Below are positions 37,201 through 48,140 of a stretch of DNA of 64,000 bases, in pieces. Numbering within the stretch: position 1 is the stretch's first letter; each line of letters begins with the position of its first letter. Source of the DNA: Staphylococcus sp. Marseille-Q5304 (GTDB taxonomy: Bacteria; Bacillota; Bacilli; Staphylococcales; Staphylococcaceae); the NCBI RefSeq assembly GCF_943737015.1, contig NZ_CALSFP010000001.1:558001-622000 (forward strand), in the 5' to 3' direction. Under the pieces are notes generated by a model. The model was not told where the DNA came from. It searched no databases and worked only from the letters and a program-made list of their open reading frames with translations. The position numbers and the translations under genes were made by a program.

Positions 37201-38499
37201 TTATTCACTTTTAGCTTGAAGATCTTCAATTGCTTTAGCAATCATATCAAATACGTATGGGATATCATCTTTTTCAATACAACTGAATGCAATTCGAATA
37301 TCAGTAGCGTTTAAAGCGATAATACCGATTGAATAGTGTTCGATAAGATGTTCACGTAATTCTTCCGGTTTAACATCTTGAACTTTCACTGCCATAAAGT
37401 AGCCTGAATTGAAATCATATGGTTGCCAGAATTTTTTGTATTTTTCATCATAAACGACTGATTTTGTAACTTCATATCGTGCTTGAAGTGTATCTATATT
37501 ATGTTGAATTTCCTTTTCAAATGTTTCAGGATGTTCTAAAACGTATTTAACAGCACTTTGTGAAGGCATTGGACCGCTAGAAATATTACTGCGTATTAAC
37601 CCTTTAACTTTCGCTTCTAAAACTTGTTTTGTAGTTTCATCATTTACACCAAATGTGATAAATCCAACACGTAAGCCCCAAGCGAAGAATTCTTTTGTAG
37701 CACCATCTAAACGGATAGGTAACAAGTTTTCTTGTTGTAGATTAGTGAGTGCTGTAAATAATGACTGCGTATATACGTCTTCATAGAATAAGCCGTAATA
37801 AGCGTCATCCACAATAGCAATGACATTCGTACCTCGCTCAGCTAATGATTGAATTGCCTCAACCATAACTTTTACTTCTTCTTTATTTGGAGTATAGCCA
37901 GTAGGGTTGTTAGGGTAATTTAAAATTAAAATCACTTTATCTTTCTCATAGTTTTCTAAATGTTTAACAAGACCATCAGTTGTGAAATTACCTGATTCAT
38001 CAAAAATATTATAAGTTTCTATATCTACACTATGTCTCGTACTATAAACAAGCTTGTAGTTACCCCAATTGTGCGTTGGTAATAGCAATGTATCACCACT
38101 ATCTGCGAACATATCACCTACGATTGATAAACCATGTGTTAACGCATTTGTTGCAATTGGTCGTGAGAAATCTTCTTTTTTTAGATCTGGGTTTTCTTTT
38201 AACATTTTTTGTTGCCATAAATCACGTAATGACTCTAAACCTTGAGGTGGGGCATAAGGAAATATTTCATCAGGCTCTAAATGATGGAATACATCATTTA
38301 ACGTATCTGCATACATTTTACGATCACTATATGTTGCCATACCTATCGTTGCGTTATATTTTGTAGATTTAGCTTCTGCAGATTGTGACAAAATCCCTTT
38401 AGGATAGTAAATTAATTTACCAAGATCTGAGAGCATATCTGCAACATTTGGGTTTGATTTAGATAATTTTTCGTTTAAATCTAAAGCTAATGGATTCAT
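37201..38499 (-). CDS. Class I/II PLP-dependent aminotransferase
   Basis: This 432-aa cytosolic enzyme has the fold type I aminotransferase pattern. The PLP-contacting segments ILNYPNNPTGYTP and AIVDDAYYGLFYED and the Schiff-base lysine in RLDGATKEFFAWGLRVGF are clear. The amino donor and acceptor cannot be deduced, and it is not one of the well-known biosynthetic aminotransferases. It is a single gene, with upstream DNA shared with the Fst-like locus. Confidence 0.88.
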   Translation of the reverse strand: MNPLALDLNEKLSKSNPNVADMLSDLGKLIYYPKGILSQSAEAKSTKYNATIGMATYSDRKMYADTLNDVFHHLEPDEIFPYAPPQGLESLRDLWQQKMLKENPDLKKEDFSRPIATNALTHGLSIVGDMFADSGDTLLLPTHNWGNYKLVYSTRHSVDIETYNIFDESGNFTTDGLVKHLENYEKDKVILILNYPNNPTGYTPNKEEVKVMVEAIQSLAERGTNVIAIVDDAYYGLFYEDVYTQSLFTALTNLQQENLLPIRLDGATKEFFAWGLRVGFITFGVNDETTKQVLEAKVKGLIRSNISSGPMPSQSAVKYVLEHPETFEKEIQHNIDTLQARYEVTKSVVYDEKYKKFWQPYDFNSGYFMAVKVQDVKPEELREHLIEHYSIGIIALNATDIRIAFSCIEKDDIPYVFDMIAKAIEDLQAKSE

Positions 38500-38611
38500 A
38501 GTAGGACAACCTCTCTTTTTTGATTGATATTATTATATTATCTTGAAATGCTTTAAAATAAAAGTATTGAACCAACAATACCTACAAATTATGAAAAAAA
38601 TACCCTTATAC

Positions 38612-38641
38612 CGAACATACGTTCTATTTTTATGTTAGAAT
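38612..38641 (+). promoter_or_regulatory. LexA box and promoter of the Fst-like toxin
   Basis: CGAACATACGTTCT (38612-38625) matches the Gram-positive LexA operator CGAAC-N4-GTTCG at every fixed position except the last. An extended -10, TGTTAGAAT (38633-38641), lies downstream, so the LexA box covers the -35 region. Repression by LexA and induction by DNA damage are inferred. The same one-mismatch form of the box occurs in front of the YolD-like gene in this window. Confidence 0.7.
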
Positions 38642-38694
38642 ATAAGAAGGCCATTGTTATTCCTCATGGCACTCTTTGTTATGGGAGGTGTAGT

Positions 38695-38793
38695 ATGATT
38701 ATGTGGTGGCAAGATATGGTTATGACGTTAATAACAGGTGGCATACTTGTTGTTTTCCGTGTCTGGTTAGACATTAAATGGAAAGACAAATAG
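38695..38793 (+). CDS. Fst-like type I toxin peptide
   Basis: This 32-aa frame begins MIMWWQDMVMTLITGG, continues ILVVFRVWL and ends in the charged tail DIKWKDK: one membrane helix followed by a lysine-rich tail. The pattern of small residues, then F-x-x-WL, then charges resembles Fst/SprA1-type toxins, although the usual proline is missing. GGGAGG lies 6 nt upstream; a second ATG at 38701 is possible. The repeat GTGTAGTATGA covers its start codon and recurs after the downstream hairpin, where a short antisense RNA would begin. Membrane toxicity is inferred. Confidence 0.65.
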   Translation: MIMWWQDMVMTLITGGILVVFRVWLDIKWKDK

Positions 38794-38802
38794 GTGGCCT
38801 TG

Positions 38803-38864
38803 CACAAAAAACCCCAAGTCTGTGGCAGCAGACTTGGGGTTTGTGTAGTATGACTTGTGGATAC
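38803..38864 (-). ncRNA. Candidate antisense antitoxin RNA
   Basis: On the minus strand TTGCAG (38894-38899) and TAAAAT (38871-38876, with TGG before it) are separated by 17 bases, a good promoter. The transcript would start near 38864 and run about 60 nt to the hairpin at 38811-38840 and its T run. It contains the complement of GTGTAGTATGA (38843-38853), so it can pair with the identical copy at 38688-38698 over the toxin ribosome site and start codon. This is the arrangement of RNA II in par/Fst modules. Confidence 0.6.
38805..38840. terminator. Shared terminator of the toxin-antitoxin locus
   Basis: The arms ACCCCAAGTCTG and CAGACTTGGGGT form a perfect 12-bp stem. The T run is on the minus-strand side (TTTTTT), which favours termination of the antisense RNA; the toxin mRNA would use the same hairpin from the other side less efficiently. 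Confidence 0.8.
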
Positions 38865-39104
38865 ATTTACATTTTACCATTAAAGTATTATGTCTGCAAT
38901 CAATTCATGTATTTATACAAAATGTACAATATATATCTAGAATTATAAGTGATTTAAACTGGGTGAAATGAGAAAAATCGTGTTTATGTATTCCATAAGT
39001 CTTTTTACGATATTAATCTTATTTTTAATAAGTAAATATGTGACGTTCACTATTTAGATATTCAGTATAAAATTTGATATACTGTGAGTGTTTGAGGTGA
39101 AAAT

Positions 39105-39299
39105 ATGAAACATTTAACAAAAATATTTGTAATAATTGCTATTATCGCTTTTATTGTGGGTTATTATTTACAAGCGACTGGTAATGAAAGTGCTGGCATT
39201 AAATTATTATTAGCAGCGATAATGTTTATGATTTGTGCATTTATTAACAGATACAATGATCGACGAAAAAAGCAAAACCAAGACAAGCATAAAAAGTAA
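39105..39299 (+). CDS. Small two-helix membrane protein
   Basis: This 64-aa protein has two predicted membrane helices (about residues 6-24 and 31-48) followed by a strongly basic tail (RRKKQNQDKHKK). The start is preceded by GAGGTG. I do not recognise a family. It stands alone upstream of pmtR with its own terminator. A role next to the Pmt exporter is possible but unsupported. Confidence 0.75.
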   Translation: MKHLTKIFVIIAIIAFIVGYYLQATGNESAGIKLLLAAIMFMICAFINRYNDRRKKQNQDKHKK

Positions 39300-48126: not shown

Positions 48127-48140
48127 AGAACATTTGTTCG
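48127..48140. promoter_or_regulatory. LexA box upstream of the YolD-like gene
   Basis: Read on the minus strand this is CGAACAAATGTTCT, which matches CGAAC-N4-GTTCG except at the last base. It lies 23 nt before the YolD-like start codon, so SOS control is likely. Confidence 0.75.

Follow-up and report, generated by a model that had tools for sequence, protein, structure and literature searches.

The window analysed in this study, a stretch of 64,000 nucleotides from Staphylococcus sp. Marseille-Q5304, probably carries a chromosomal module of the type I toxin–antitoxin kind, in which a putative membrane peptide is controlled by the SOS response and guarded by RNA. The elements of the module are listed below with their strand, where rows are the aligned loci with the window included and cells are single entries of the fold alignment.

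38612-38625, plus strand: LexA (SOS) box CGAACATACGTTCT; it covers the -35 position of the promoter for the peptide
38633-38641, plus strand: extended -10 (TGT-TAGAAT), TGTTAGAAT, directly after the LexA box; the transcription start is predicted near 38648
38648-38846, plus strand: predicted mRNA of the peptide, roughly 200 nt long and with predicted ends, running from the promoter under LexA to the terminator shared with the antisense RNA
38648-38655, plus strand: 5' arm of the predicted 5'-3' closing helix, with 93.6% of cells paired over 8 pairs; it can also pair with 38666-38670
38666-38670, plus strand: leader arm ATGGC, which may pair with the 5' end in place of the 3' arm (95.6% of cells paired) and is also part of the predicted hairpin that hides the ribosome-binding site (RBS)
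38683-38688, plus strand: Shine-Dalgarno sequence GGGAGG; GGAGG or GGGGG in 65 of 65 rows
38688-38698, plus strand: direct repeat 1, over the RBS and start codon, reported by the repeat finder and co-varying with repeat 2
38695-38793, plus strand: 32-aa single-helix peptide, a putative type I toxin; NF047567, 64.6 bits against a cut-off of 45
38793-38800, plus strand: 3' arm of the predicted 5'-3' closing helix, at the stop codon
38804-38864, minus strand: predicted antisense RNA of about 60 nt, with predicted ends; its 5' tail of about 24 nt is largely unpaired
38809-38842, no strand assigned: predicted shared terminator hairpin with a perfect 14-bp stem and compensatory stem changes, for example G-C in 35 and A-U in 6 of 41 rows
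38843-38853, no strand assigned: direct repeat 2, whose minus-strand complement lies within the antisense 5' tail
38857-38865, no strand assigned: GTGGATACA near the antisense start, which lengthens the pairing to the GTGG after the start codon
38871-38899, minus strand: candidate antisense promoter TTGCAG-17-TAAAAT, 8 of 12 to consensus

The module (38612-38899) is flanked by an ORF at 37201-38499 on the minus strand, labelled as an aminotransferase gene from the gene order of the S. aureus record NZ_CP077935.1, and by a gene for a small SE1626-family protein at 39105-39299 (NF047566, 118.2 bits, cut-off 70). Beyond the latter gene, the ORFs follow in the same order as in the S. aureus GntR-pmt region, and the S. 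aureus copy in NZ_CP077935.1 (L032) has the same neighbours as the window locus. This 256-kb record is labelled a plasmid and looks chromosome-derived because it carries the eap and pmt genes. In the 3.1 kb examined of NZ_CP077864.1, a single gene is annotated, and a phage-labelled relative is an unverified contig of 1.4 kb. None of these three records was taken as evidence of mobility.

All elements named in the original prediction, which had been made from the window sequence, were recovered from the sequence and with a repeat finder. The frame at 38695-38793 comprises 32 codons plus a stop; the 11-mer GTGTAGTATGA is present twice, at 38688-38698 and 38843-38853, and is the sole direct-repeat family reported at 10 nt or longer within 38400-39100; and the minus-strand TTGCAG-17-TAAAAT lies at 38899-38871. 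The hairpin is a perfect inverted repeat as claimed, with a stem of 14 bp (38809-38822/38829-38842) in place of the 12 bp given for it. The T run at which the RNA was proposed to end suits the minus-strand RNA (TTTTTT), and is poorer for the plus-strand mRNA (TTT). Eight Rfam matches (E up to 5) all fell below their gathering scores; the best two of them, SpF66 and NsiR1, overlie the terminator hairpin and were dismissed as hairpin look-alikes. A promoter/terminator scan listed neither the module promoters nor the hairpin, and it found fewer promoter-like sites than the shuffles had (8 versus 10.8). The single-genome statistics for the module are weak. The module stands out from chance because of the comparison with relatives, in which the GAAC/GTTC positions are near-invariant and the repeats co-vary. 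For this comparison, 64 relatives' loci were used, 63 from genus genomes (the window's own excluded) and one from an S. aureus record (L032); 63 of these 64 rows are distinct, and L054 is of the same species as the window.

A LexA box with at most two mismatches to CGAAC-N4-GTTCG was present in 64 of the 64 relatives' loci (0, 1 and 2 mismatches in 11, 49 and 4 loci, respectively), with the GAAC-N4-GTTC core in 63 of them. Among the 61 distinct rows of these loci, pairwise identity reached 0.97-1.00 at the GAAC/GTTC positions, only 0.49-0.55 at the two outermost box positions, and a mean of 0.43 over the 25 bases upstream of the box. A TG-n-TA-like -10 ends 14-17 nt past the box in every locus, reading TA(A/G)AAT in 58 and ending in AACT or AGAT in 6. 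As judged from these alignments, the locus shares with the SOS regulon a conserved LexA box over the promoter. PMC11442139 lists SAOUHSC_02157, with the box CGAACATATGTTCT, as LexA-regulated, citing its reference 22, and the box printed there is present in the NZ_CP077935.1 copy. With the box in all loci and the regulation of the S. aureus ortholog given in PMC11442139, the LexA-controlled toxin promoter of the original prediction is upheld, and SOS control of the locus is not new, that of the ortholog being already in print in the same source.

The LexA box was rejected as stand-alone proof: CGAACNNNNGTTCK has 5 copies in the window's own genome versus 4 for the reversed control pattern. GAACNNNNGTTC has 2 copies in the window versus 0.58 expected, a number equalled by 12 of 100 shuffles. 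The genome has four other exact boxes. Three are beside ORFs that we read as sbcD/sbcC-, UmuC- and YolD-like, and the fourth is close to one that we read as nrdI-like. The genes sbcC, sbcD, umuC and yolD belong to the published S. aureus LexA regulon (PMC11442139). A second LexA-type box of the window (48127-48140) is located just upstream of a minus-strand YolD-like ORF (L095, also named by our own reading), and a UmuC-like ORF (L096, C1:1132420 of the window's own genome) has at its start a pair of GAAC-N4-GTTC sites 29 bases apart, a possible double LexA operator.

The peptide of the window lies above the curated cut-off of NCBIfam NF047567, which is named after SAOUHSC_02157; the S. aureus gene is of the same family and has the same neighbours and the LexA box. 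In PMC11442139, a review, SAOUHSC_02157 is an uncharacterised 99-base gene, for which it is uncertain whether a functional peptide is encoded. Of the 84 genus genomes, 64 have a single copy of the peptide, among them the window's own (2.28 Mb). No copy was found in the 24 genomes from other genera of the Staphylococcaceae (108 genomes searched) or in the 73 genomes outside the genus within the order (157 genomes searched). We compared 52 distinct stretches of 19 codons in pairs, which are not independent, and the differences by codon position were 7778/1987/10549; among codons with a single change, 6030 were synonymous and 3096 were not. These codon-position differences and the synonymous excess show that the peptide is kept as a protein. 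Its sequence and its likeness to the Fst peptides suggest that it forms one helix. The conservation that the original prediction had proposed to check in related staphylococci was found for the LexA box (64/64), the repeat pair (59/64) and the peptide (64/84 genus genomes).

The strong constraint on the peptide also suits a different explanation, namely, that it is a useful SOS membrane protein, such as a division or membrane modulator, rather than a toxin, with the antisense RNA trimming leaky synthesis. We consider this explanation unlikely but serious. Its single copy in the genomes that carry it and the aminotransferase gene in 64 of 64 loci are unlike mobile addiction modules, and further evidence on it comes from loci that lost the antisense side, which are treated below.

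All 20 genus genomes that lack the peptide have the aminotransferase-like gene next to the SE1626-family gene, with the site intact; within the approximately 3.2 kb read for each, no LexA box (at most one mismatch) and no GTGGATACA were found. Three of these 20 genomes gave weak peptide matches (E 0.72, 0.72 and 0.13), of which two fall within the aminotransferase ORF and the third more than 1 kb away from the site; they were put down to chance. The module is present or absent as a block. The fixed neighbourhood would also be expected if the locus served its neighbours, through SOS read-through or antisense effects on the aminotransferase gene, the SE1626-family gene or the GntR-ABC (pmt-like) operon. 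This idea is hardly credible, given the strong hairpin after the ORF and the occurrence of the aminotransferase and SE1626 genes together in all 20 genomes that lack the module.

On the minus strand, the predicted antisense RNA folds with -23.8 kcal/mol (z -4.3), its tail being unpaired in the centroid structure and having 3 bases paired in the minimum free energy (MFE) structure. The duplex between this tail and the mRNA of the window has a predicted energy of -27.2 kcal/mol, which was equalled by 0 of 1000 shuffled tails. GTGGA is found downstream in 59 of 65 rows, window included, and is absent from L008, L012, L031, L041, L062 and L065. In the 59 rows that have GTGGA, the best minus-strand promoter site of each scan reaches 7-10 of 12, and the antisense promoter is therefore only supportive. 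With a promoter that is weak by consensus (8 of 12) and unlisted by the scan, the locus might have no antisense RNA at all, repeat 2 and the hairpin being the terminator region of the mRNA and the repeats a coincidence or relic. Such a reading is very improbable in view of the coordinated change of the repeats and its 16-to-0 direction, as pairing with a minus-strand RNA would select, and of the promoter-like sequence and GTGGATACA kept past the terminator.

The pairing of an antisense RNA with the mRNA is suggested most directly by the repeats. The repeat pair was found in 59 of 64 loci, with the second copy just past the terminator, and an exact repeat of at least 9 nt in 51 of 64. The repeat sequence varies by clade, both copies together (GTGTAGTATAAT, GTGTAATATAAT, GTGTAGCATAAT, GTGTTTAATCAT and others). 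Over 19 distinct pair types and 12 positions, 203 positions were identical, 16 differed by wobble-keeping transitions, 0 by the opposite transitions and 9 by transversions; the direction of 16 to 0 is explained by the G-U pair that is kept in a duplex of mRNA and minus-strand RNA, since the opposite kind would break the pairing. The mean pairing score was 22.7 of 24 (59 loci, range 19-24) versus 19.7 when second copies were re-dealt among loci with kinship ignored, and 0 of 2000 shuffles scored as high; this score is biased towards pairing, because repeat 2 was placed in its best-pairing register. Five loci (L008, L012, L031, L062 and L065) had been set aside by eye, with no hairpin found and no GTGGA. 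They score 16-20 of 24 and eight of the 59 score 19-21, an overlap by which the score alone would not separate L008 (20).

The changes were mapped by one parsimony reconstruction on a midpoint-rooted aminotransferase tree of 64 tips. Repeat 1 has 27 changes there and repeat 2 has 31, and 15 of each coincide in position and branch; the coincident events are fewer than 15 because several come from one clade's register shift or from near-root branches. The cleanest coincident changes are G to A at position 6 (clade of 9), T to C at position 7 (L011) and A to G at position 8 (clade of 10). In the window's own lineage, shared with L054, copy 2 changed from A to G at position 10, by which the G-U pair of relatives became G-C. 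Cognate tail–mRNA duplexes average -27.7 kcal/mol versus -22.4 kcal/mol for non-cognate ones, and the cognate duplex was at least as strong as the median non-cognate duplex in 52 of 58 loci (58 of the 59, L041 being without the GTGGA anchor). The antisense pairing at the toxin start, as originally proposed, is borne out by the co-varying repeats with their 16-to-0 direction. To judge from this co-variation, the locus has the par feature of direct repeats that give antisense complementarity at the toxin start.

The peptide and the LexA box are kept and the antisense side is lost in L008, L012/L031 and L062/L065, which represent three events on the tree. These five loci have neither the repeat pair nor a perfect hairpin of at least 7 bp, by a test that also missed the imperfect hairpins in eight repeat-keeping loci. 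Their repeat 1 departs from GTGT, which is found in 59 of 59 others, a departure that fits weaker constraint on repeat 1 once the antisense RNA is gone. The peptide can thus be carried without the antisense side, which is the strongest point against a potent toxin, and the retention of peptide and box in three lineages adds to the evidence for a useful SOS membrane protein. Heavy repression by LexA, the self-folded mRNA and the antisense RNA, together with the Fst likeness, would be expected for a harmful product and speaks against this alternative.

The predicted mRNA of the window has an MFE of -75.5 kcal/mol versus -52.2 kcal/mol for shuffles (z -5.7). The fold alignment contained 41 of 65 rows (the window plus 40); the near-duplicates L004, L010, L015, L032, L038, L039, L050 and L054, the loci L005 and L033 that were missed by the terminator pattern, the loci L008, L012 and L031, and the divergent L055-L065 were left out. 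RNAalifold pairs 38649-38654 with 38794-38799, one of these pairs being C-G in 24 and U-A in 15 of 41 rows, and leader columns 21-28 with RBS/start columns 45-54; double changes occur in 9 of its 42 pairs. Both pairings of the 5' end, with the leader arm and in the closing helix, exceeded all 500 shuffles in cells paired, double-change cells and covariation score, and exceeded slid controls in cells paired. Two other measures did not stand out: 487 of 500 shuffles for the leader arm and 495 of 500 for the closing helix had at least as many pairs with double changes, and all 500 in both cases had at least as many further pair types. Each helix has its double changes in one column only, and kinship inflates such counts; a control of the closing helix slid by -3 likewise gave 15 double-change cells. 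For the double-change column, 21 of 41 rows have C/G/G at the three partners, 14 have U/A/A and 6 have other combinations. A switch from a nascent to a closed fold is described for other type I toxin mRNAs. These partners suggest, and only suggest, that the 5' end may switch in this way here. Intramolecular mRNA helices of the par type are predicted for the module and partly co-vary over the 41 of 65 rows aligned.

In the proposed mechanism, LexA on the promoter would keep the peptide mRNA off, and DNA damage would remove LexA, upon which the mRNA would be made. The mRNA would fold on itself, its 5' end pairing with the stop-codon segment and its leader covering the RBS and start codon. An antisense RNA of about 60 nt, transcribed from the opposite strand and sharing the terminator, would pair through its 5' tail with the RBS and start codon. 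It would mop up leaky mRNA, so that the peptide would be produced only once transcription under SOS exceeds the supply of antisense RNA. The one-helix peptide would then act on the cell's own membrane, slowing growth during DNA repair. Comparison of loci documents the LexA box, the -10, the peptide, the repeats, the terminator and the mRNA helices at the level of sequence; from these we infer the RNA ends, constitutive expression of the antisense RNA, the translation block and the action on the membrane.

The closest known architecture is that of Fst/par, represented by par of pAD1, chromosomal Fst loci and S. aureus SprA1/PepA1. According to PMC7472228, par has convergent promoters, a shared bidirectional terminator, direct repeats that cover the start, and intramolecular helices of the 5' end that hide the Shine-Dalgarno sequence, and its peptide of about 32 aa has a P/D/S/TXXXG motif, a conserved Trp and a charged tail; as far as such features are visible in a sequence, those of RNA layout and peptide fit the module. 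A convergent layout with a shared terminator would agree with the hairpin and its compensatory changes and with minus-strand promoter-like sites in 59 of 65 rows, and the U run favours the antisense direction. The module differs from Fst/par in the additional Trp near both ends of its peptide, an invariant Arg and the promoter under LexA; the terms SOS and LexA have 0 occurrences in the main text of PMC7472228.

An hhalign comparison of the peptide family with seven staphylococcal Fst peptides gave 65.7% (E 5.7e-5), and column shuffling, in 200 full and 200 core-only versions, never gave a value as high; the best of the core-only versions was not far below, at 60.0% and a score of 20.7 versus 21.3. 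In the alignment of profiles, TLITG lies over the PIVVG-type motif of Fst, and Trp-Leu before the charged tail is in register. The peptide accordingly bears, as aligned, the marks of a distant Fst likeness, a P/D/S/T-XXX-G motif in the helix and a conserved Trp before the charged tail. The Pfam family PF13955 (Fst_toxin) matched none of 17 family peptides at a limit of E 10, at which the HMMER filters drop most matches above about 0.1, and none of its places at E 0.01 in the 84 genomes, compared by eye, was at the module locus. The label 'Fst-type' of the original prediction is therefore retained in part: the par layout, extended by the 5'-3' helix and the RBS-hiding hairpin, and the profile–profile likeness agree with it, and a Pfam Fst_toxin match is lacking in the 17 peptides. 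The sequence points weakly to kinship of the peptide with Fst; the module works like Fst/par and is probably its distant relative, not a confirmed member.

Other small-peptide systems were also compared. TxpA/RatA-SprG/SprF (Hol_Tox) are likewise staphylococcal one-helix type I toxins, and Hol_Tox gave a weak match (E 0.15) in one of the 17 family peptides. Kinship to Hol_Tox finds no support in a profile comparison of 4.7% versus 65.7% for Fst, made with a rough alignment of 10 peptides of which 6 were cut short (11 of 12 loci tried, 10 peptides obtained, 6 of these beginning at an internal Met). The other weak Pfam matches of the 17 peptides were DUF2976 in 6 (best E 0.013) and MASE5 and Synaptobrevin in 1 each. 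The type I pair Srn_9343/9344 proposed in S. aureus Newman (PMC5496865) is another locus, flanked by an amidase gene and isdB and next to phage phiNM2. The string '02157' is absent from the main text of PMC5496865 and PMC12607899.

In its wiring, the module is like E. coli tisB/istR-1, and also symE/symR and dinQ/agrB, in that a small toxin is repressed by LexA (PMC8309996, PMC8167048). The tisB mRNA is self-inhibited by its structure, and the antisense RNA is outrun upon SOS induction (PMC8309996, PMC8167048); where PMC8167048 at one point names Bacillus subtilis as the source of tisB/istR, we assume a slip. The peptide and RNA architecture of tisB/istR-1 are different from those of the module, which is predicted to be convergent, with a shared terminator and direct repeats, and the likeness is best described as analogy, not kinship. 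The term 'toxin-antitoxin' has 0 occurrences in PMC11442139, and no report of an antisense RNA or of a toxin–antitoxin reading of the locus was found in the open-licence literature searched, outside which most subscription papers and supplements lie. As far as this literature tells, the antisense partner, the co-variation, the folded mRNA and the toxin–antitoxin reading are new.

The module is most likely the staphylococcal equivalent of tisB/istR, with an architecture like that of par. We lean, with reserve, towards a fuller account, in which a genus-wide, vertically kept Fst-like module with three locks (LexA, a self-folding mRNA with a possible 5' switch, and the antisense RNA) would be a TisB-like growth brake triggered by damage and the first LexA-controlled Fst-type locus, its RNA lock having been lost in natural lineages. 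A type I toxin of Salmonella is reportedly SOS-induced. SOS-induced type I toxins are known from E. coli (PMC8309996, PMC8167048). If this account is true, the same wiring as in E. coli would be present with another RNA architecture in most staphylococcal genomes examined, and a published, unexplained LexA-regulated gene of S. aureus would gain a purpose. The natural losses of the antisense side would offer a ready comparison for the role of the RNA lock.
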